64,000 bases of DNA from contig NZ_CADFDB010000003.1 in the NCBI RefSeq assembly GCF_902832845.1, positions 186,001 to 250,000 on the forward strand. Reading direction: 5' to 3'. The notes under the pieces are model-generated. The model was given only the letters and a program-made list of their open reading frames with translations. It was not told the origin of the DNA and did no database searches. Origin of the DNA: Burkholderia metallica. Lineage in GTDB: Bacteria; Pseudomonadota; Gammaproteobacteria; Burkholderiales; Burkholderiaceae. Shown here in pieces: positions 20,189-37,559 of this stretch (positions are counted from its first letter, which is position 1; the number at the start of each line of letters is the position of its first letter). The translations under genes were made by a program, and so were the position numbers.

Positions 20189-21220
20189 TCAGTCGCTGTT
20201 GCCGGCGACGATGCCCATCACCGCCATCCGCACGGCGATGCCGAACGTGACCTGGTTGAGGATCACCGACTGCGGGCCGTCGGCGACCTGCGAATCGATC
20301 TCGACGCCGCGGTTCATCGGACCCGGGTGCATCACGATCGCGTCGGGCGCGGCGAGCGCGAGGCGCTCGGGCGTCAGGCCCCAGGTCTTGAAGTATTCCT
20401 GCGCGGAAGGCAGCAGCGCGCCGCTCATCCGCTCGTTCTGCAGGCGCAGCATGATGATCACGTCGACGCCCTTCAGCCCTTCGTCGAGGTTGTGGAACAC
20501 CTTCACGCCCATCTGCTCGAGACCGCCCGGCAGCAGCGTGCGCGGGCCGATCGCCCGCACTTCCGGCACGCCGAGCGTGGTGAGCGCGTGGATGTCGGAG
20601 CGCGCGACGCGCGAATGCAGGATGTCGCCGACGATCGCCACGCGCAGCTTCGTGAAGTCGCGCTTGTAGTGACGGATCGTGTACATGTCGAGCAGGCCCT
20701 GCGTCGGGTGCGCATGGCGGCCGTCGCCGGCATTGATCACGTGCACGTGCGGCGCGCAGTGCTCGGCGATCAGGTACGGCGCGCCGCTCGATGCGTGGCG
20801 CACGACGAACAGGTCGGCATGCATCGCCGACAGGTTGTTGATCGTGTCGAGCAGCGACTCGCCCTTGCTCGTCGACGACGCGTTGATGTTCAGGTTCAGC
20901 ACGTCGGCCGACAGGCGCGTCGCGGCGATCTCGAAGGTCGTGCGCGTGCGGGTCGAGTTCTCGAAGAACAGGTTGAACACGGACTTGCCGCGCAGCAGCG
21001 GCACCTTCTTCACTTCGCGGTCCGTCACGCTGACGAACTGCTCGGCCGTATCGAGGATGTGGTTGACGATCGAGCGCGGCAGGCCCTCGATCGACAGCAG
21101 GTGCTTCAGCTCGCCGTTTTTCGTGAGCTGCGGGTTGCCCTTCAGGAAGCCGTAGCGGAACCGGTCGGGGCTCGCGGCCGCAGCGGGATTGCCGGTGCGG
21201 CCAGTGGTGTCGGTGGTCAT
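20189..21220 (-). CDS. pyrB: Aspartate carbamoyltransferase catalytic subunit
   Basis: A 343-residue ATCase making N-carbamoyl-aspartate from aspartate and carbamoyl phosphate. The carbamoyl-phosphate motif [12 protein letters not shown] and [16 protein letters not shown] are present, followed by RLQNERM and a terminal [14 protein letters not shown] 21220 ([12 protein letters not shown]) gives an N-terminal extension of about 30 residues before the conserved core, a feature of the PyrB class that pairs with PyrC' rather than with a PyrI regulatory subunit. It lies 73 bases after pyrR. Confidence 0.96.
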
Positions 21221-25882: not shown

Positions 25883-27526
<1,644 letters not shown>

Positions 27527-27569: not shown

Positions 27570-27863
27570 TTACTTCGCGTTGACCACGGCCATGATGTCT
27601 TCTTCGCGCATGACCAGCAGTTCGCTGCCGTCGACCTTCACGGTCTGGCCTGCGTACTTGCCGAACAGGACGCGATCGCCGACCTTCACGTCGAGCGCGA
27701 TCGGTGCGCCCTTGTCGTCACGCTTGCCCGGGCCGACGGCCAGAACTTCACCCTGGTCCGGCTTTTCGGCAGCGGCGTCGGGGATCACGATGCCCGAGGC
27801 GGTCTTGGTTTCCTGATCCAGGCGCTTGACGATCACGCGATCGTGCAAAGGACGAAGGTTCAT
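27570..27863 (-). CDS. groES: Co-chaperonin GroES (10 kDa)
   Basis: A 97-residue Gro[20 protein letters not shown] at the start, the mobile loop [16 protein letters not shown] that docks on GroEL, and [18 protein letters not shown] 27863 has GGAG five bases upstream; a GTG two codons earlier is not needed. It is the first gene of the groESL operon, directly downstream of the heat-shock control region. Confidence 0.99.
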
Positions 27864-27936
27864 ATTCACTCCTCTCTTGACTGAGATTGAAGAACGCTTA
27901 GGGAATCTGCCCGGCTTGTCGCCCGGCAGAGAATTG

Positions 27937-27963
27937 TTAGCACTCTCGTGCAGCGAGTGCTAA
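27937..27963 (-). promoter_or_regulatory. CIRCE operator (HrcA binding site)
   Basis: TTAGCACTC (27937-27945), nine bases, GAGTGCTAA (27955-27963): an exact copy of the canonical CIRCE inverted repeat. It lies 74 bases before groES and overlaps the last base of the -10 element, so HrcA bound here would block transcription start. Confidence 0.97.
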
Positions 27964-28389: not shown

Positions 28390-28408
28390 GATGCGAATCA
28401 TTCTCGTT
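28390..28408 (+). promoter_or_regulatory. Fur box upstream of the iron operon
   Basis: Read on the minus strand this 19-mer is AACGAGAATGATTCGCATC, matching 16 of 19 positions of the palindromic Fur site AATGAGAATNATTCTCATT. It ends four bases before the -35 hexamer of the downstream promoter, a position suited to repression by Fe-Fur. Confidence 0.8.
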
Positions 28409-28412
28409 TACA

Positions 28413-28441
28413 TTGACTTTCCCATTTAACACTCCTACGAT
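28413..28441 (+). promoter_or_regulatory. Sigma-70 promoter for the iron operon
   Basis: TTGACT (28413-28418), 17 bp, TACGAT (28436-28441). Start of transcription is expected near 28448, leaving a leader of about 97 nucleotides before the porin gene. The Fur box abuts its upstream edge. Confidence 0.7.
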
Positions 28442-28544
28442 GCGCCGCGTCGCGCTCATCTTCATGCTCTGGCCAACCCGTGCCACGCATCCGGACAGCG
28501 ACCGACAAGCAGGATTCCAAACTAAATAGAACTACGGATTTGAT

Positions 28545-30011
28545 ATGAAGTTTGCGTCGTCCCAAGGAGACAGCGTCCGCGCCCGGATGCGCCCCGCCGC
28601 CTGTGCGGCCATTCTCGCGTGTGCATCGTTCGCGAGCGGCACCGCTTTCGCCGACGTGCCGGTCGACGCACAGCCCGAAGCCCCCGAGGCCGACCTCGCG
28701 ATCCAGGCGAAGCCGACCAACATGTGGACCGGCATCTGGACCCGCCAGAGCCTGCTCGGCGACATGGGCGGCATCCGCCCGTGGCTCGGCAAGTACGGCG
28801 CGACGCTGCAGATCACCGAAACCAGCGAATACCTCGCGAACCTGCGCGGCGGCCTGAACCGCGGCGGCGCGTACGACGGACTGACGACGGCGACCCTGAC
28901 GGTCGACACGCAGAAAGCGATCGGCTTGGCCGGCGGCACGTTCAACGTCAGCGCGCTGCAGATCCACGGCACCAACCTGAGCGCGCGCAACCTCGGCACG
29001 CTCAACACCGCGAGCGGCATCGAGGCGCAGGGCACGACGCGCCTGTGGGAGCTGTGGTACCAGCAGTCGTTCCTCGACAAGCGCGTCGACGTGAAGATCG
29101 GCCAGCAGAGTCTCGACCAGGAATTCATGGTCAGCACGTATGCGAACACGTTCGTCAACACGATGTTCGGCTGGCCCGCGCTGCCGTCGTACGACCTGCC
29201 CAACGGCGGCCCCGCGTATCCGCTCGCGGGCCTCGGCGTGCGCGTGCGCGCGCAGATCACGCCGACGCTCACCGCGCTCGCGGGCGTGTTCGACGGCGAT
29301 CCGCTCGGCAACAACCCGAACAACCTGAGCGGCACCAATTTCAACCTGCACAACGGCGCGCTCTACATCGGCGAGCTGCAGTACGCGCTGAACCAGCCGT
29401 CCGACGGCGAAATGGATACCGGCCGCTCGAACGGGCTGCCGGGCACCTACAAGATAGGCGTCTGGTATCACAACGGCCGCTTCGCGGACCAGAACGTGGG
29501 CACCGACGGGCTGTCGCTGTCGGATCCCGCGTCGAACGGCAACGCGCAGCAGCGTCACGGCAACTACAGCTTCTACGCGGTGGCCGACCAGATGATCTGG
29601 CGCCCCGACCCGAGCGGCGCGAAGAGCCTCGGCGTGTTCGCACGCGTGATGGGTGCGCCGGGCGACCGCAACCTGGTGAGCTTCTCGGCCAACGCGGGGA
29701 TCGTGCTGAAGGCGCCGTTCGAAGGCCGCGACAACGACAGCGTCGGCCTCGGCGTCACGTACATCCAGGTCGGCAACCACGTGACCGACCTCGACCAGAG
29801 CGCACGGACGTTCGCGAGCGGCCCGTACGGCGTGCGCACGCGAGAGACGACGCTCGAAGCGACCTACCAGTACCAGGTCACCCCGTGGTGGATCGTCCAA
29901 GCCGACGCGCAGTACACGTTCAATGCAGGCGCCGGCCAGAACCCGAGCGACGCGACCCAGCCGCTGCGCAACACGTTCGTGCTCGGCGCGCGTACGACGA
30001 TCACGTTCTGA
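28545..30011 (+). CDS. OprB-family (carbohydrate-selective type) outer-membrane porin
   Basis: A 488-residue outer-membrane porin. A signal peptide of about 36 residues ends AACAAILACASFASGTAFA. The mature part begins with TNMWTGIWTRQSLLGDMGGI and RPWLGKYGATLQITETSEYL, the GxRxxLxxxGxxxxxxxxxE opening of OprB porins, continues with alternating beta-strand patterning, and ends in an aromatic-hydrophobic strand TTITF with terminal Phe, as required for Bam recognition. The family is named for sugar uptake, but here the gene is the first of a Fur-boxed operon with iron genes, suggesting passage of an iron complex. It starts at ATG 28545. Confidence 0.88.
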   Translation: MKFASSQGDSVRARMRPAACAAILACASFASGTAFADVPVDAQPEAPEADLAIQAKPTNMWTGIWTRQSLLGDMGGIRPWLGKYGATLQITETSEYLANLRGGLNRGGAYDGLTTATLTVDTQKAIGLAGGTFNVSALQIHGTNLSARNLGTLNTASGIEAQGTTRLWELWYQQSFLDKRVDVKIGQQSLDQEFMVSTYANTFVNTMFGWPALPSYDLPNGGPAYPLAGLGVRVRAQITPTLTALAGVFDGDPLGNNPNNLSGTNFNLHNGALYIGELQYALNQPSDGEMDTGRSNGLPGTYKIGVWYHNGRFADQNVGTDGLSLSDPASNGNAQQRHGNYSFYAVADQMIWRPDPSGAKSLGVFARVMGAPGDRNLVSFSANAGIVLKAPFEGRDNDSVGLGVTYIQVGNHVTDLDQSARTFASGPYGVRTRETTLEATYQYQVTPWWIVQADAQYTFNAGAGQNPSDATQPLRNTFVLGARTTITF

Positions 30012-30038
30012 GCGACGCGCCCACGCTGCCCTTTTTCG

Positions 30039-30060
30039 CGCGCCGCCCGGACGGCGCGCT
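30039..30060 (+). other. Intercistronic hairpin
   Basis: GCGCGCCG (30039-30046), six bases, CGGCGCGC (30053-30060): a perfect 8-bp GC stem in the 64-base gap after the porin gene. No T-run follows, so it may protect the porin mRNA end or cause partial termination, lowering expression of the downstream genes. Confidence 0.5.
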
Positions 30061-30075
30061 CCCCAGGAGACTCAC

Positions 30076-31209
30076 ATGATTCAATCCGCCCCGCTTCGCC
30101 GCTTCGCGACGGGTGCGCTGGCCGCCGCCGCGCTGACGGCCGCCGCCGGCGCATTCGCCGAGCCGCAAGGTTTCCTCGAAACGCTGCATCGCCACGTCAC
30201 GCTCGTCAACACGGTGCCGGACAACGGCGACCAGAACCCGTACGCGATCGCGATCGCGCCGGTATCGGCCGGCACGATCCAGGCGGGCGACGTGCTCGTC
30301 GACAACTTCAACAACTCGGCGAACCTGCAAGGGACCGGCAGCACGATCGTCGACTACCGCCCGTCGACGAAGCAGTTGAGCCTGTTCGCGGCGATCCCGC
30401 GCGACCTGAAGGCGTGCCCGGGCGGCGTCGGCCTGTCGACGGCGATGACGATGCTGAAGTCGGGCTGGGTGATCGTCGGCAGCACGCCGAGCAACGACGG
30501 CACGACCAACACCAAGGGCGCCGGCTGCCTGATCGTGCTCGATCCGCAGGGCAAGGTCGCGTCGACGTGGTCGACTCCGAACATCAACGACCCGTGGGGC
30601 AACATGGCCGTGGTCGACCGCGGCGACAGCGCGACGCTGTTCGTCAGCATGGCCGGCTTCGGCGTCGGCGGCGCGAACGGCAATCCGCCCGTCTACAAGC
30701 AGGCGACCGTGCTGCGTCTCGACCTCGACGTGCCGGCGGGCAAGCCGCCCGTCATCAAGCAGGAAACGGTGGTCGCGAGCGGCCTCGGCGCGCAGGCCGA
30801 CAAGGGCGTGTTCCTGGTCGGCCCGACCGGCCTCGCGCTGTCGGGCGACCAGAAGAAGCTGTACGTGTCGGACGCGATCGGCAACCGCATCGTCGAGATC
30901 GACGACCCGCTCACGCGCGACACCAGCGCGGGCGTCGGCCGCCAGGTCACAGCCGACGGCTTCCTGCGCCGCCCGCTCGCGCTCGCGACCGCGCCGAACG
31001 GCCACCTGCTCGCGACCAACGCGCAAAACGGCCAGGTCGTCGAGATCGACCCGGTTGCCGGCAAGCAGATCTACGCGCGCTGGATCAATACCGACAAGGC
31101 GCAGACGCCTCCCGGCAACGGCAACCTGTTCGGCATCGCGATGACGCCCGAAGGCGACGGTTTCTACTACGTCGCGGACGACGTCAACACGCTGTTGCTC
31201 GCGAAATGA
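30076..31209 (+). CDS. Secreted beta-propeller (NHL/YVTN-like) protein
   Basis: A 377-residue exported protein. The signal peptide is MIQSAPLRRFATGALAAAA followed by a cleavage region TAAAGAFAEP. The mature part shows repeated blades of the type GDVLVDNFNNSANLQG, LYVSDAIGNRIVEID and LLATNAQNGQVVEIDP, characteristic of six-bladed NHL/SMP-30-like propellers. No catalytic motif can be named. ATG 30076 has AGGAGA seven bases upstream. It lies between a porin and a Tat-exported DyP peroxidase in a Fur-boxed operon, so a periplasmic role in binding or presenting an iron-containing substrate is a guess. Two cysteines (CPGG, GCLI) could form a disulfide. Confidence 0.85.
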   Translation: MIQSAPLRRFATGALAAAALTAAAGAFAEPQGFLETLHRHVTLVNTVPDNGDQNPYAIAIAPVSAGTIQAGDVLVDNFNNSANLQGTGSTIVDYRPSTKQLSLFAAIPRDLKACPGGVGLSTAMTMLKSGWVIVGSTPSNDGTTNTKGAGCLIVLDPQGKVASTWSTPNINDPWGNMAVVDRGDSATLFVSMAGFGVGGANGNPPVYKQATVLRLDLDVPAGKPPVIKQETVVASGLGAQADKGVFLVGPTGLALSGDQKKLYVSDAIGNRIVEIDDPLTRDTSAGVGRQVTADGFLRRPLALATAPNGHLLATNAQNGQVVEIDPVAGKQIYARWINTDKAQTPPGNGNLFGIAMTPEGDGFYYVADDVNTLLLAK

Positions 31210-31220
31210 CGGAGCCCATC

Positions 31221-32528
31221 ATGGCTGACGATCTCGACCGGCCGCCGCGCACCGCCCGGCGCGGCTTCCTGAAGGCGGGCGGCGCCGCCGTGGCCGCCGG
31301 CCTCGCCGCGGCGGCGATCCCGGCCGCGAAGGCCGCGGATGCGGCCGCCGCCGCACCTGCCGCTCCCGCGTCCGCGCACGACGGCGTCGAACCGTTCTAC
31401 GGCCGGCACCAGAGCGGCATCACGACACCGCAGCAGCGCCACGCGTATTTCGCGGCGCTCGACCTGACGACGGCCCAGCGCGCGGACGTCATCGCGCTGC
31501 TGAAGACCTGGACCGACGCCGCCGCGCGGATGACGCGCGGCGACACCGCGCTGCCTCTCGCCGCGACGGGCGGCGACGAAGCTCCGCCGGCCGACGGCGG
31601 CGACGCGCTCGGCCTCGGCCCCGCGCGCCTGACGGTCACGTTCGGCTTCGGTCCCGGCCTGTTCGCGCTCGCGGGTAAGGACCGCTACGGCCTCGCGAAG
31701 CATCGCCCCGCCGCGCTCGTCGACCTGCCGCGGTTCAACGGCGACCAGTTGCTGCCGGAGAAGACCGGCGGCGACCTGTTCATCCAGGCGTGCGCGGACG
31801 ACGCGCAGGTCGCGTTCCACGCGGTGCGCCAGCTCGTGCGCCTCGGCGCGAAAGCGACGCAGATGCGCTGGGGCCAGGCCGGTTTCACATCGGGCAAGCC
31901 CGGCGAAACGCCGCGCAACCTGATGGGCTTCAAGGACGGCACGATGAATCCGCCGATGTCCGATCCGGCCGCGATGAACGAATTCGTGTGGGCCGGCAGC
32001 GAAGGCCCGGCATGGATGAACGGCGGCACCTACACGGTCGTGCGCCGCATCCGCATCACGCTCGAGCACTGGGACAACACGGAACTGGGCTTCCAGGAGC
32101 AGGTGGTCGGCCGTCACAAGTACAGCGGCGCGCCCCTTGGCCAGAAGAACGAGTTCGAGGCGCTCGATCTCGATGCGACCGACAAGGACGGCAACCCGGT
32201 GATCCCCGACAACTCGCACGCGCGCCTCGCGTCGCCGCAGTTGAACAACGGCGCGCAGATCCTGCGCCGCGCGTACTCGTACAACGACAGCACGAACTTC
32301 TACATCGAGCGCTGGCCGCCGTGGCGCCAGCAGACCGAGTACGACGCGGGGCTGATGTTCGTCGCGCACCAGCGCGACCCGCGCAAGGGCTTCATTCCGA
32401 TCAACGAGAAGCTCTCGAAAATGGACATCATGAACCAGTTCACCACGCACGTCGGCAGCGCGATCTTCGCGTGCCCGCCGGGCGCGCAACCGGGTTCGTA
32501 TATCGGCGCCGCGCTGTTCGACGCATGA
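31221..32528 (+). CDS. Tat-exported DyP-type heme peroxidase (EfeB-like)
   Basis: A 435-residue DyP peroxidase. The twin-arginine motif RRGFLK (13-18) and an alanine-rich hydrophobic stretch direct it folded to the periplasm. The family motif GFKDGT is at 236-241, with catalytic Asp239; the proximal heme ligand is probably His333 in NSHARLASP, and a distal arginine lies in QILRRAYSY (about 349-350). EfeB-type enzymes oxidise phenolics and have been reported to release iron from heme. ATG 31221 has GGAG six bases upstream; ATG 31206 is also in frame. It precedes a ferric ABC transporter. Confidence 0.92.
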   Translation: MADDLDRPPRTARRGFLKAGGAAVAAGLAAAAIPAAKAADAAAAAPAAPASAHDGVEPFYGRHQSGITTPQQRHAYFAALDLTTAQRADVIALLKTWTDAAARMTRGDTALPLAATGGDEAPPADGGDALGLGPARLTVTFGFGPGLFALAGKDRYGLAKHRPAALVDLPRFNGDQLLPEKTGGDLFIQACADDAQVAFHAVRQLVRLGAKATQMRWGQAGFTSGKPGETPRNLMGFKDGTMNPPMSDPAAMNEFVWAGSEGPAWMNGGTYTVVRRIRITLEHWDNTELGFQEQVVGRHKYSGAPLGQKNEFEALDLDATDKDGNPVIPDNSHARLASPQLNNGAQILRRAYSYNDSTNFYIERWPPWRQQTEYDAGLMFVAHQRDPRKGFIPINEKLSKMDIMNQFTTHVGSAIFACPPGAQPGSYIGAALFDA

Positions 32529-32593
32529 CGACGCACAGCGCGAGCCAACGCACCCCTTCCCGGCGCAGCCGGATGCAACCTGCTGAAAACCAC

Positions 32594-33628
32594 ATGAATA
32601 CTTCACCCGTTAGCCGCCCGCTGCGGCACCTGATTTCCGCGGCGGCCGCCGCGCTGATGCTGACCGGCGCGCTGCACGCCGTGCGCGCGCATGCCGCGAC
32701 CCTCACGCTGTACAACGCGCAGCACGAGCAGGTCGTGAACCAGCTCGTCAAGGACTTCGAAGCGCAGAGCGGCATCACCGTGAAGGTGCGCTCGGGCGAA
32801 GGCCCGGCACTCGCCGCGCAGCTCGTCGCGGAAGGCGACCGCACGCCGGCCGACGTGTACTTCACCGAGAACTCGCCGGAACTCGTGCTGCTCGACCACA
32901 AGGGGCTGTTCGCGAAGACCGACGGCGCCACGCTGCAATCGGTGCCCGCGCGCTTCAACCCGGCGGACGGCAACTGGGTCGGCGTGCTCGCGCGCGAGAA
33001 CGTGCTCGTCTACAACACCGCGAAAATCCAGCCGCAGCAATTGCCCGCATCGCTGCTCGATCTGGCGAAGCCCGAATGGAAGGGCAAGGTCGGCGTCGCG
33101 CCGAGCGATGCGGACTTCCTGCCGCTCGTGAGCGCGGTGCTCGCGCTGCACGGCGAAGCCGCGACGCTGCAATGGCTGAAGGGCCTGAAGGCGAACGCGC
33201 AGATCTTCGACGACGACGAAGGCGTGACGGCGGCCGTCAACCGCGGCGGCGTGCTGACCGGCATCGTCAACAACTACTACTGGGACCGCCTGCACGCCGA
33301 GCTCGGCGACAAGTCGACCCGCAGCGCGATCTACCACTTCGGCAAAGGCGACGTCGGCGGTGCCGTCAACGTGTCGGGCGCCGCGGTGCTGAAGGCGTCG
33401 AAGCACCAGGCGGACGCGCAGAAGTTCGTCGCGTATCTCGTCAGCGAGCGCGCGCAGAAGCTGATGGCCGGCGGCCACATCAGCTTCGAATATCCGCTGC
33501 ATCCGGGCGTCGCGCCCGATCCGATCCTGAAGCCGTTCAACGAACTGAGCCCGCCGGCGCTGACGTTCGAACAGCTCGGCGACGACAGCCAGGCCGGCAA
33601 GCTGCTGCGCCAGGCAGGCCTGCTCTGA
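32594..33628 (+). CDS. Periplasmic ferric-iron-binding protein (FbpA/SfuA-like)
   Basis: A 344-residue ABC solute-binding protein with a Sec leader ending ALHAVRAHA (about residue 34). The mature part opens ATLTLYNAQHEQVVNQLVKD, typical of Fe(III)-binding proteins, and has the tyrosine pair NNYYW (228-229) used to coordinate ferric iron, plus DVYFTENSPEL in the anion-binding region. It captures Fe3+ in the periplasm for the following permease. ATG 32594 is preferred; ATG 32573 would add seven residues. It follows the DyP gene by 65 bases. Confidence 0.93.
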   Translation: MNTSPVSRPLRHLISAAAAALMLTGALHAVRAHAATLTLYNAQHEQVVNQLVKDFEAQSGITVKVRSGEGPALAAQLVAEGDRTPADVYFTENSPELVLLDHKGLFAKTDGATLQSVPARFNPADGNWVGVLARENVLVYNTAKIQPQQLPASLLDLAKPEWKGKVGVAPSDADFLPLVSAVLALHGEAATLQWLKGLKANAQIFDDDEGVTAAVNRGGVLTGIVNNYYWDRLHAELGDKSTRSAIYHFGKGDVGGAVNVSGAAVLKASKHQADAQKFVAYLVSERAQKLMAGGHISFEYPLHPGVAPDPILKPFNELSPPALTFEQLGDDSQAGKLLRQAGLL

Positions 33629-33630
33629 CC

Positions 33631-35229
33631 ATGAGCGACGCCGTGTCCCGCACGGCGAGCACCGCGCGCGACGGCGAGCGCACCGCGACACGGCGGCGCC
33701 CGTCGCGCGCGCTCGTTGCCGCAGCCGCGTGCGGGCCGCTCGCGATCCTGCTGCCGCTCGGCTTCACGCTTTACCGCGCGGCCACCTTCGGCGTCGACGA
33801 TGCGATCGAGCTGCTGTGGCGCCCGCTCGTCGGCGAACTGCTGGTCAACACGCTGTCGATCACGCTCGCCGCGACCCTCGCGTGCGCGCTGCTCGGCACG
33901 GCGCTCGCGTGGTTCATCGAGCGCACCGACCTGCCGGCCCGGCCGCTGTGGACCGCGCTCGCGGCCGCCCCGCTCGCGGTGCCGCCGTTCATCACGAGCT
34001 ACGCGTGGGTATCGTTGAGCCTCGATCTGCAGGACTTCCTCGGCGCGCTGATCGTGCTGACTTCCGCATACTTCCCGCTCGTCTACCTGCCGGTGGCCGC
34101 CGCGCTGCGCGAGCTCGATCCCGCGCTCGAAGAAAGCGCGCGCACGCTCGGCTGCTCGCCGTGGCATACGTTCTTGCGCGTCGTGCTGCCGCAGCTGCGC
34201 CCCGCACTGTGCGGCGGGATGCTGCTCGTCGCGCTCGGCGTGCTGTCCGAGTTCGGCGCGTTCCAGTTGCTGCGCTTTCGCACGTTCACGACCGAGATCT
34301 ATGCGGAATACCGCACCGCGTTCGACGGCGGCGGCGCATCGCTGCTCGGCTGCGTGCTGATCGCGCTGTGTCTGCTGTGCCTCGCGATCGAGGCACGCGC
34401 ACGCGGCCATGCGCGCTACGGTCATACGCACCGCGCCGCGCGCCGCGTCGCGATGCGTTATCCGCTCGGGTATCTGCGCGGCCCCGTCACCGTCTCGTTC
34501 GCCGCGGTTGCAGCGGCGACGCTCGGCGTGCCGCTCGCGATGATCGGCTACTGGCTCACGCAGCAGGGCGCGGCCGCCGTCACGCCGGCCGACGTATCGC
34601 CCGAGCTGCTGTGGCAGGCGACGCTCGCGTCGTCCGGCTACGGGCTGACGGCGGCGGCCGTCACGACGCTGCTCGCGCTGCCGCTCGCGTTCCTGCTGGT
34701 CCGTTATCCGGGCCGCGTCGCGACGCTGCTCGAGCGCACGGCGATGACCGTGCAGGGCGTGCCGGGCATCGTCGTCGCGCTGGCGATCGTGTCGATCACG
34801 GTGCGGCTGCTGCAGCCGCTCTACCAGAGCGCACCGGCGCTCGTCGCCGCCTACGCGATCCTGTTCCTGCCGCTCGCGGTCGTCAGCGTGCGCGCCGCGC
34901 TGTCGCACGTGCAGGTCCGGCTCGAGGAAACCGCGCGCTCGCTCGGCCTCGGCTGGCGCGCGACGCTCACGCGCGTGGTGCTGCCGCTCGCGGCGCCCGG
35001 CCTCGGCGCGGCCGCGACGATGGTGTTCATCTCGGTCGTGACGGAACTCAACGCGACGCTGCTGCTGTCGCCGATCGGCACGCGCACGCTCGCGACGCAG
35101 GTGTGGAGCGATACGGCGACGCTCGCGTTCGCCGCCGCGGCGCCCTATGCGGCGCTGCTCGTCGCGCTGTCGCTCGGCGCATCGGGACTGCTGTTCCTGC
35201 TGCTCGGCCGCGCATCGGTGCGCGACTGA
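33631..35229 (+). CDS. Ferric-iron ABC transporter permease (fused FbpB-type)
   Basis: A 532-residue membrane protein with about twelve hydrophobic helices arranged as two homologous halves, as in FbpB. Each half carries an EAA-type loop: LEESARTLGCSPWHTFLRVV in the first and LEETARSLGLGWRATLTRVV in the second, the contact sites for the ATPase. It forms the inner-membrane channel for Fe3+. ATG 33631 lies two bases after the stop of the binding-protein gene. A separate gene for a second permease is not needed. Confidence 0.94.
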   Translation: MSDAVSRTASTARDGERTATRRRPSRALVAAAACGPLAILLPLGFTLYRAATFGVDDAIELLWRPLVGELLVNTLSITLAATLACALLGTALAWFIERTDLPARPLWTALAAAPLAVPPFITSYAWVSLSLDLQDFLGALIVLTSAYFPLVYLPVAAALRELDPALEESARTLGCSPWHTFLRVVLPQLRPALCGGMLLVALGVLSEFGAFQLLRFRTFTTEIYAEYRTAFDGGGASLLGCVLIALCLLCLAIEARARGHARYGHTHRAARRVAMRYPLGYLRGPVTVSFAAVAAATLGVPLAMIGYWLTQQGAAAVTPADVSPELLWQATLASSGYGLTAAAVTTLLALPLAFLLVRYPGRVATLLERTAMTVQGVPGIVVALAIVSITVRLLQPLYQSAPALVAAYAILFLPLAVVSVRAALSHVQVRLEETARSLGLGWRATLTRVVLPLAAPGLGAAATMVFISVVTELNATLLLSPIGTRTLATQVWSDTATLAFAAAAPYAALLVALSLGASGLLFLLLGRASVRD

Positions 35230-35257
35230 GCGCCGCCCTTTTTCTCCCGGAACGCCC

Positions 35258-36307
35258 ATGAGCGAACTACGCATCCACGGCCTGTCCAAATCGTTCGGAT
35301 CGCATACGGTCCTGCACGACATCGATCTCACGGTGCGGCGCGGCTCGCGGCTCGCGCTGCTCGGCCCGTCCGGCAGCGGCAAGACGACACTGCTGCGCGT
35401 GCTGTGCGGCTTCGAGCGCGCCGAGCGCGGCATCGTCGAAATCGACGGGCGCCGCGTGGCCGCGCCCGACGTGCACCTGCCGCCCGAACAGCGCCGGATC
35501 GGCTACGTGCCGCAGGAAGGCGCGCTGTTTCCGCACTTGTCGGTGGCCGACAACATCGCGTTCGGGCTGCCGCGCGCGGCGCGGCGGCGCCATCATCGCG
35601 TCGACGCTCTGCTCGAGATGGTCGGGCTGCCCGCGTCGTATGCGAGCCGTGCGCCGCAGCAGCTGTCCGGCGGGCAGCAGCAGCGCGTCGCGCTCGCACG
35701 CGCGCTCGCGCCCGAGCCGTCGCTCGTGATCCTCGACGAACCGTTCTCCGCGCTCGACACGTCGCTGCGCCACGAGACGCGCAGCGCGGTGGCCGATGCG
35801 CTCGCCGCGGCGGGCGCGACGTCGGTGCTCGTCACGCACGACCAGCCCGAGGCGATGACGCTCGGCGACGAAGTGGCGGTGATGTGGCACGGCCGGCTCG
35901 TGCAGACGGCCGCGCCGCAGACGCTGTACCGGCAGCCCGTCACGCGCGACGTCGCATCGTTCGTCGGGCAGGCGGTGCTGCTCGCCGGCCGCGTGCGCGG
36001 CACGCGCATCGACTGCGCGCTCGGCGAACTGCCGCTCGTCGCGCCGCTGCTCGACGGGCCGGCCGACGCGATGCTGCGTCCCGAACAGATCGGCATCGTG
36101 CCGCTCGCGCAGGCCGGCACGGCAGGCGGCCACACGGCCCGCGTCGAAGCCGCGCAGTTCGCGGGCCAGGACGCCGACGTGCTCGTGCGCCTCGATACCG
36201 ATCGCGACGTGCAGGTGCGCGTGCGCGTGCCGGGGCACCGGTGCCCGGCCGTCGGCGAGCACGTCGCGCTGATGGTGGACGGTGCGGTGATGGCGTACGC
36301 ACGCTGA
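35258..36307 (+). CDS. Ferric-iron ABC transporter ATP-binding protein (FbpC-type)
   Basis: A 349-residue ABC ATPase. Walker A is GPSGSGKTT, the signature LSGGQQQRVALARAL, Walker B LVILDEPFSALD and the switch VLVTHDQPEAM. The C-terminal 120 residues (from about 235) form a TOBE-like regulatory domain, as in FbpC, which senses imported iron. It energises the preceding permease. ATG 35258 follows the permease stop by 28 bases. It is the last gene of the porin-propeller-DyP-Fbp set and runs toward the convergent ECF operon. Confidence 0.94.
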   Translation: MSELRIHGLSKSFGSHTVLHDIDLTVRRGSRLALLGPSGSGKTTLLRVLCGFERAERGIVEIDGRRVAAPDVHLPPEQRRIGYVPQEGALFPHLSVADNIAFGLPRAARRRHHRVDALLEMVGLPASYASRAPQQLSGGQQQRVALARALAPEPSLVILDEPFSALDTSLRHETRSAVADALAAAGATSVLVTHDQPEAMTLGDEVAVMWHGRLVQTAAPQTLYRQPVTRDVASFVGQAVLLAGRVRGTRIDCALGELPLVAPLLDGPADAMLRPEQIGIVPLAQAGTAGGHTARVEAAQFAGQDADVLVRLDTDRDVQVRVRVPGHRCPAVGEHVALMVDGAVMAYAR

Positions 36308-36366: not shown

Positions 36367-36882
36367 TCAGGCATCGGCGCAGCCCGCATCGGACAACGGC
36401 CGGAACGTGCGGCCATCCGTCTCGACGGCCGCGCCCAGCAGGCGTGCGAGCCCCTTCGCGCCTTCGCGCATCACGACGTCGTGATTCCATCGGAACAGCG
36501 GGCGGCCGAGCGGCTCCAGCCAGTTCATCCAGCGCGCGTGCGTGTGGATGTGCCAGTCGTAGCGCACGATCGTGCGTGCGCCGGCGGCGACGAACGACCA
36601 GCATCCGTCGCCCTCGATCGCGCCGCTCGCGCGGCCTTCGAGCACATGCGGCGGCTCGACGCGCCGCACGCGCATGTCGAAGGTCAGCCGGTAGGGCAGC
36701 GCCCCCTTCCACGTATACCGGTGCAGCGCACCAACCCCGCGCGCGTCGCCCGGCTCGATCTCGACGGTGCTCACCGCGCCCTTCCACCAGTCGGGCCAGC
36801 GGTCGACCTGGTAGATCGCGCCCCACACCACCACGAGCGGCGCGTTCACGCGCCAGGTCGTCGAGAACCGGTATTCCGCCAT
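36367..36882 (-). CDS. SRPBCC (START/polyketide cyclase-like) protein
   Basis: A 171-residue protein with the helix-grip fold pattern: MAEYRFSTTWRVNAPLVVVW as first strand and helix, YQVDRWPDWWKGAVSTVEIE, then TFDMRVRRVEPPHVLEGRAS, WSFVAAGARTIVRYDW and a long C-terminal helix NHDVVMREGAKGLARLLG. Members bind hydrophobic ligands or act as cyclases; nothing in the pocket identifies a ligand. No signal peptide is visible, so it is cytoplasmic, unlike its operon neighbours. ATG 36882 follows the LolA-like gene by 44 bases. It is the last gene of the ECF-sigma operon. Confidence 0.85.
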   Translation of the reverse strand: MAEYRFSTTWRVNAPLVVVWGAIYQVDRWPDWWKGAVSTVEIEPGDARGVGALHRYTWKGALPYRLTFDMRVRRVEPPHVLEGRASGAIEGDGCWSFVAAGARTIVRYDWHIHTHARWMNWLEPLGRPLFRWNHDVVMREGAKGLARLLGAAVETDGRTFRPLSDAGCADA

Positions 36883-36926
36883 GCGGCCTCCATCACGCGT
36901 GTCTACGGCCTGCGTCAGCGCACCGC

Positions 36927-37559
36927 TCAGGGTGCGAAAAAGCGTTCGGGAAACGCGACGTCGATTTCGACGTCGTCGAGCGTCACGGTTTCGAGCGGCA
37001 CGTCGCCGTCGTCCGCGAAGCTGACGACCTTCAGCGGAAAGCCGTCCTCGGTATCCAGCCACAGCCGGTAGCGATGCACGCCGTCGACCACATGCGCGGG
37101 CGCACCGGTGACCGACACGCGCAGCGCGGTCCGGCCGCCGACGGCCTCCTCGCCTTCGGTCACCGTCGCACCGCCCTCCTGCAGCGCATGGACGTTGCGC
37201 AGCAGTTCGCCGACGTCCGACCGGTCGACCCGGTGGCCGCTGCGGTCGCGCACGAGCGGATTGGACGGCGACAGCGTGAGCGCGGGCGGCGCATGTTCGC
37301 CGAACGGGCGCAGCCGCACCTTGCCGTCGCCGGGATCGTACGCGAGCACCGCGCCGCGATGCGGCGACACGAAATCCATCCGCACGAAACCCGGTTTCAG
37401 GTACGCATAGCGGAATTCGGTGTGTTCGCCGCCGCGCGCCGACGAACGGATCGTCGCGCGATACGAGCGGACGTGGTCGAAATGCGCCTGCGCGACGGTC
37501 ACGGGATCGGCGGTCATGCTCGCTCCTATCAGGCTCGCGGCCAGCAACGCGGCGATCAC
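36927..37559 (-). CDS. LolA-like / DUF1571-type secreted protein
   Basis: A 210-residue protein starting at GTG 37559, which overlaps the upstream cupredoxin stop (GTGA). A short leader (IAALLAASLIGASMTADP) lacks strong positive charge. The body has YRATIRSSARGGEHTEFRY, KPGFVRMDFVSPHRGAVLAY and RYRLWLDTEDGFPLKVVSF, the half-barrel pattern of outer-membrane lipoprotein-sorting (LolA/MucB-like) and DUF1571 proteins. It probably works in the periplasm binding a lipid or sensing acylated ligands. In ECF operons, MucB/RseB proteins of similar fold restrain the anti-sigma factor, which is one possible role here. Confidence 0.8.
   Translation of the reverse strand: MIAALLAASLIGASMTADPVTVAQAHFDHVRSYRATIRSSARGGEHTEFRYAYLKPGFVRMDFVSPHRGAVLAYDPGDGKVRLRPFGEHAPPALTLSPSNPLVRDRSGHRVDRSDVGELLRNVHALQEGGATVTEGEEAVGGRTALRVSVTGAPAHVVDGVHRYRLWLDTEDGFPLKVVSFADDGDVPLETVTLDDVEIDVAFPERFFAP

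Follow-up and report, generated by a model that had tools for sequence, protein, structure and literature searches.

A conserved six-gene set with a Fur-type site, an EfeB-type peroxidase, and an FbpABC-type importer in Burkholderia metallica: a candidate iron-uptake operon

Gene content of the locus

In this study, a 64,000-nucleotide stretch of contig 3 of the Burkholderia metallica genome (7,554,727 bases in 37 contigs), hereafter the window, was analyzed with respect to a set of six genes at 28545-36307 that constitutes a candidate iron-uptake operon. The genes lie on the + strand, are co-directional and tightly packed, with intergenic gaps of 64, -4, 65, 2, and 28 bases in order, and encode an outer-membrane porin, a beta-propeller, a DyP peroxidase, and the binding protein, permease, and ATPase of an FbpABC-type importer. 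They follow a Fur-box core, TGCGAATCATTCTC (28392-28405, + strand), and a sigma-70-like promoter, TTGACT-17-TACGAT (28413-28441, + strand). The core ends seven bases before the -35 hexamer of this promoter-like site, which was the only one detected on the + strand between 27900 and 36600 by a consensus scan. A sequence-only reading of the window had proposed six co-directional genes behind a Fur box and a promoter, and its gene calls and families were borne out. Judged from this stretch of DNA, the six genes would be co-transcribed. A terminator-like stem on the + strand (35216-35235) overlaps the permease stop; five such stems were observed in the region, and 4.9 were expected from shuffled sequences.

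The fourth gene (32594-33628) encodes a periplasmic ferric-binding protein of the FbpA/HitA type with 344 amino acids (aa); an alternative start at 32525 overlaps the DyP stop. The protein was aligned over its full length with HitA, and the HitA, SfuA, and YfuA chains were matched at E values of 1.8e-76 to 1.2e-69, the range with FbpA included being 1.8e-76 to 5e-56. H44, Y228, and Y229 were present in 83 of 83 aligned sequences and E92 in 80 of 83 (Ser in three), and these residues are presumably the His, Glu, Tyr, and Tyr ligands of Fe(III) in FbpA/HitA. FbpA proteins bind Fe(III). The adjoining genes encode a fused two-domain ABC permease of the FbpB type (532 aa, 33631-35229), with two stretches matching PF00528, and an FbpC-type ABC ATPase with a TOBE domain (349 aa, 35258-36307; PF00005 and PF08402). 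The ATPase scored 225 bits against the ferric ABC model PRK11432, below its cut-off of 496, and higher, 283 bits, against a 2-aminoethylphosphonate ATPase model, also below the cut-off of that model. The proposal of an Fe3+-type binding protein with a YY pair, a fused permease, and an ATPase was thus confirmed.

The third gene (31206-32528) encodes an EfeB-type DyP peroxidase (440 aa) with a twin-arginine signal. Its start overlaps the propeller end as ATGA, with an alternative start at 31221. The protein exceeded the cut-off of the EfeB-type equivalog model TIGR01412 (461 bits versus 428), the twin Arg was present in 81 of 83 sequences with a gap in two, and D244, H338, and R355, which we take to be residues of the DyP heme pocket, were present in 83/83. 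The assignment of a DyP with a Tat-type signal was likewise sound.

The first gene (28545-30011) encodes an OprB-family porin (488 aa) with a full-length OprB domain (PF04966, 332 bits, model positions 2-372 of 372) and a match to the Porin B structures 4gey/4gf4 at E 5e-21. The second gene (30076-31209) encodes a 377-aa NHL-type beta-propeller with a signal peptide recognized by eye. The Pfam matches of the propeller were weak, namely SGL with 24.7 bits (below the cut-off of 26.3) and NHL with 20.2 bits (cut-off 20), and a profile built from 17 propellers matched structurally characterized NHL propellers (Pizza designs, SOQ1, and TRIM71), the best stretch covering approximately 80 residues. 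Alignment columns averaged 73% identity among 17 relatives, and Cys 114 and Cys 151 were invariant in 83/83 aligned sequences and may form a disulphide. No metal motif was recognized in the propeller sequence. Capture of iron or heme by the propeller had been proposed, and no evidence for it was found; our guess is that the protein probably serves as a scaffold or handover partner in the periplasm.

Conservation, decay, and the Fur core

The set was compared with 83 distinct loci, namely 80 named loci found by the propeller, being the best 80 of 194 relatives, and L097-L099 from other families of the order; L095 and L096 repeat L065 and L067 and were not counted. The six genes were found in the same order and on the same strand in 80 of the 83 loci (77/80 named and 3/3 of the others), and the incomplete loci, L017, L023, and L030, are cut off by contig ends. 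One of the complete loci, L039, is from the soil strain Paraburkholderia xenovorans LB400 and has a Fur core upstream. The window propeller shared 97% identity with its counterparts in Burkholderia sp. D-99 and B. lata. The distances of the six proteins correlated at 0.80 to 0.94 over 82 loci, both repeats among them, and the window; as the comparison was confined to genes of the operon, with no control gene from outside it, these correlations would show joint descent and not coupling.

Among 65 genomes of the genus, the propeller orthologue was found in 39, the DyP in 38, and the binding protein in 35, each set being nested in the previous one, with at most one binding protein per genome at E 1e-50. 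A 40th propeller match, in G719, was only a 38% paralogue. The DyP gene adjoined the propeller gene in 36 of 38 genomes, and in G673 and G718 the two lie on different contigs of fragmented assemblies. No DyP was found in G725 (1100 contigs) and no binding protein in G718 (830 contigs), both fragmentary. Two genomes (G700 and G703) retain the porin, propeller, and DyP with a short ATPase remnant after the DyP and have no binding protein or permease, and two others (G706 and G710) have the porin without the propeller, that of G710 standing beside a permease remnant. Because the exceptions are fragmentary assemblies or keep partial sets or remnants, the ancestral state of the genus was probably the six-gene form, which has since decayed. 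The decayed loci themselves comprised importer loss with an ATPase remnant (L199 and L200), a porin with a permease remnant (L202), and a porin alone (L201).

Of 300 sampled genomes of the order, 11 contained the propeller, at 12 loci in total, and at all 12 it was preceded by the porin and followed by the DyP. FbpABC stood behind the DyP at six of the 12; at the other six (L100-L105), a search of the 5 to 7 kb following the DyP gave no FbpABC relative. In a phylum sample, 4/398 genomes had the propeller, three of them already counted. G620, related only at the phylum level, has the porin-propeller-DyP trio without FbpABC. The scattered, unlinked occurrence of homologues that would have spoken against the earlier reading was not observed in the genus and its neighbours. 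Beside two of the trios, further genes were observed: Bfd and ferritin-family genes just upstream in L102 (1440-2316) and an Nramp gene downstream in L105.

As a 19-mer, the Fur site of the window matched the E. coli consensus at only 12 of 19 positions. Sites with at least 11 of 19 matches numbered 120 in the 64 kb, both strands counted, so that such a match is not rare, and the single box was rejected as strong evidence by itself. A 14-base core pattern, TGMGAATNRTTCTC, was counted in the relatives; as it was drawn up partly after seeing sites in these loci, and the genomes are related, the counts are not probabilities. The window holds one exact match, TGCGAATCATTCTC, and two sites with at most one mismatch versus 0.17 expected, the second, with one mismatch, being at 20289-20302. 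In the 77 of 80 propeller-found loci with 450 bases before the porin, the core was exact in 66 and within one mismatch in 74, whereas the background downstream of the porin starts in the same loci (797 kb, mostly coding) contained no exact and seven near sites. Seventeen further loci (L095-L105, L111, L199-L202, and L208) gave a core within two mismatches in 12, at two mismatches only in L097 and L104; L100 had no upstream sequence for the search. The core was retained where only the porin survives (L201 and L202), and none was found within two mismatches at the seven paralogous porin loci of the genus (L189, L190, and L203-L207). In these sequences, the evidence for the Fur site is its conservation at the promoter, not the single box; the Fur box of the earlier reading stands with regard to its conserved core and is weak as a single match. 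Repression of the operon by Fur would be consistent with this conservation.

The set is flanked on one side by a - strand groES/groEL pair (27570-27869 and 25883-27523, names assigned by eye) and on the other by a - strand open reading frame at 36367-37062. Upstream of the pair, a perfect match to the CIRCE pattern, TTAGCACTC-N9-GAGTGCTAA, was observed at 27937-27963, and HrcA-type control of the pair would be expected.

Proposed function and alternative explanations

The reading that we favor, with moderate confidence, is that the six genes would form a Fur-repressed iron-uptake operon without its own TonB receptor, similar to EfeUOB with FbpABC replacing EfeU and EfeO. Fe(II) or a small, weak iron chelate would diffuse in by way of the OprB-type porin; in the periplasm, the EfeB-type DyP, once exported, would use hydrogen peroxide to oxidize Fe(II), and the FbpA-type protein would capture the Fe(III), which the FbpBC transporter would then import. 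For EfeB of B. subtilis, one report describes oxidation of Fe(II) and import of the product Fe(III) (PMC4481299). Since that protein oxidizes Fe(II) and the FbpA ligand positions are kept here, a DyP that makes Fe(III) for FbpA is the simplest reading, although both the substrate and the direction of the redox step are predictions. The pathway proposed earlier, from the porin through the propeller and DyP to Fbp, accordingly survives in its Fur-associated gene set, ferric-type importer, and EfeB-type DyP, and not in its heme substrate or its capture by the propeller.

The relatives of the DyP outside this gene set were also considered. In the order sample, with DyP matches counted above 350 bits, an EfeB-type match was found in 25 of 300 genomes, 14 of which lacked the propeller; a constant association of this DyP type with the propeller was thus rejected. 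Eleven DyP loci without a propeller were examined, from nine of those 14 genomes together with the second DyP genes of G192 and G253. Because an FTR1 gene lay 1 to 3 kb upstream in nine of the 11, EfeB-type DyP appears to be tied to ferric import; in L183 and L184 a contig end cuts the stretch short. The arrangement in the window would then be a further choice of importer partner for an EfeB-type DyP. In one of the nine, L187, the FTR1 gene belongs to an FtrABCD-type cluster, which is followed by the EfeB-type DyP.

The relatives of the porin and propeller gave a mixed picture. A porin relative stands beside FtrABCD at L195, and at L189, L190, and L194 one lies no more than 1 to 2 kb from Nramp; L189 and L190, which belong to the genus, also have a trehalase gene lying tail to tail with the porin relative. 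At L204 and L205, only weak Nramp-like matches were found, 3.5 to 4 kb from the porin relative, and at L192, L193, L196-L198, L203, L206, and L207 no relative of the iron markers was found near it, save a distant ATPase match in L197 and L207. The idea that porin relatives are always iron-linked was rejected in view of the trehalase neighbours and the several loci without an iron gene, and a role of the window porin in passing iron is putative. For the propeller, paralogues with 35-42% identity were found in 14 of 65 genus genomes, and none of the other five operon genes stood alongside the six paralogue loci L112-L117 (gene lists by eye for L112, L113, L115, and L116), so an iron link of the whole propeller family was rejected as well. 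At L112, L115, and L116, the paralogue was followed by similar proteins with a hydrophobic N-terminus.

Several observations weigh against the uptake reading. At least one FTR1 gene was found in each of the 65 genus genomes, and the B. metallica genome itself has two (contigs 20 and 23), so iron could also enter by routes other than this operon; in 26 of the 65, no propeller orthologue is present. Since the trio also stands without FbpABC, its DyP does not have to supply FbpA, and the DyPs of L101-L105, from four of the five trio-only genomes, scored 352-424 bits, just below the EfeB cut-off of 428. The porin paralogue in the same genome is tail to tail with a trehalase gene, which fits carbohydrate use. 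Apart from the weakness of the single 12/19 box, the sites in related genomes are not independent, not even a one-mismatch core was found at L017, L027, and L035 (3/77), none within two mismatches was found at L099, L101, and L102, and the only site at L111 lies inside the reading frame.

The occurrence of the trio without FbpABC also bears on the earlier idea of a single six-gene pathway: the genes are kept together in relatives, and yet, because the trio occurs by itself, the pathway looks like a front end with a separable importer. It is a tentative suggestion that the porin, the NHL propeller, and the EfeB-type DyP form a portable, TonB-independent iron front end coupled to different importers (FbpABC in Burkholderiaceae and some other families, and possibly Nramp or unlinked ones elsewhere), with the propeller as a new iron-handling partner of the DyP. 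The same occurrence would suit a peroxide defence under iron stress, in which the DyP, as DyP proteins are peroxidases, mainly removes periplasmic peroxide, FbpABC recovers stray Fe(III), and the porin and propeller serve other needs. This is very unlikely, considering that the DyP occurrence is nested with that of the ferric binding protein, a Fur-type core stands at the promoter, and the EfeB type is found with FTR1 elsewhere.

The nature of the substrate was considered in the same manner. Iron might arrive on an organic ligand, a sugar acid or dicarboxylate recognized by the porin and propeller and relieved of its iron by the DyP or a redox change. The names of the families suit this explanation, OprB being the carbohydrate-selective porin family and the best Pfam match of the propeller being SMP-30/gluconolactonase-like; however, that SGL match falls short of its cut-off and spans 84 residues, and no sugar importer family was found among the six proteins, so we consider it unlikely. 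A possible iron-dicarboxylate link was observed at L191 (5811-8707), where a Fur-cored porin relative is followed by a gene resembling a dicarboxylate symporter by eye, a point on the side of the organic ligand. Heme had been named in the earlier reading as a possible substrate; no evidence for it was found, and it is not favored. OprB porins are channels for small sugars, a TonB receptor is generally required for heme, and the deferrochelatase activity of EfeB proteins is disputed. Moreover, no heme receptor, heme-binding, or heme ABC transporter family was found among the six proteins. These points make it distinctly unlikely that the DyP acts as a deferrochelatase on heme brought in through the porin or bound by the propeller, with FbpABC importing the iron, even though the DyP passes TIGR01412, a model named deferrochelatase/peroxidase subunit. 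FepB of S. aureus is reported to have deferrochelatase activity (PMC4481299).

Comparison with known iron systems

According to a review on iron acquisition in Burkholderia, Feo is absent from most pathogenic members, and the Fe(II) route of B. cenocepacia is posed as a question, its FtrABCD appearing to use ferric iron (PMC5681537). B. cenocepacia is not among the 80 named loci. No FeoB C-terminal match was found in 13 of the 16 genomes carrying the operon, the trio, or a remnant with the porin, B. metallica included, and FTR1 was missing from four of these 16 (G033, G078, G160, and G620). The operon is a testable candidate for the ferrous-iron step of Burkholderia for those 39 of the 65 genus genomes in which the propeller occurs. 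It would give an iron setting to the propeller and to some OprB porins, and it would pair the EfeB-type peroxidase with another kind of importer. The conservation makes the six-gene set a good experimental target, the mechanism being proposed from sequence.

FtrABCD of Bordetella, Brucella, and Burkholderia is, according to the review, likewise siderophore-independent, with Fe(II) oxidized before import; the oxidation differs in being carried out by a cupredoxin (PMC5681537), and import is by an FTR1 permease, as seen at L195 and L187. FeoP of Acidithiobacillus, compared here by its description in a comparative study, is a porin-like member of the OprB family; its gene has a predicted Fur box, lies at or near feoABC, and thus resembles that of the window porin in standing beside an iron importer. 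The importer of FeoP is FeoB, however, and the description consulted names no DyP or propeller for it (PMC2631029). The same source links a kelch-domain protein of Leptospirillum to EfeU and a cupredoxin (PMC2631029). Because of these two cases, a porin and a propeller-type protein beside iron genes are less odd than the sequence-only reading had it when it called them non-standard partners of Fbp and EfeUOB; FeoP is a precedent for a Fur-associated porin in an iron cluster, and the two proteins remain extra parts relative to EfeUOB. No description of the six-gene set was found in the full-text literature, a weak absence as subscription papers are mostly outside its coverage, and the main text of the Burkholderia review contains no occurrence of EfeB, FbpA, or peroxidase.

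FbpABC, HitABC, and SfuABC resemble the importer of the window in the binding protein with H, E, Y, and Y ligand positions, the permease, and the ATPase. One-chain fused permeases are also found in known FbpABC-type systems, and we know of no such system described with a porin, propeller, or DyP in one operon. The other half of the likeness is to EfeUOB (YcdNOB; FepCAB in Listeria and Staphylococcus), in which a Tat-exported EfeB-type DyP is encoded beside an Fe(III) importer. In contrast to EfeUOB, the window permease is of the PF00528 ABC type with no FTR1-type EfeU in the operon, and the six window proteins include FbpABC, a porin, and a propeller instead of the EfeO family. As predicted from the sequences, what is new here is therefore ferric uptake in which an EfeB-type peroxidase assists an FbpABC importer, with the porin and the propeller as two additional parts.

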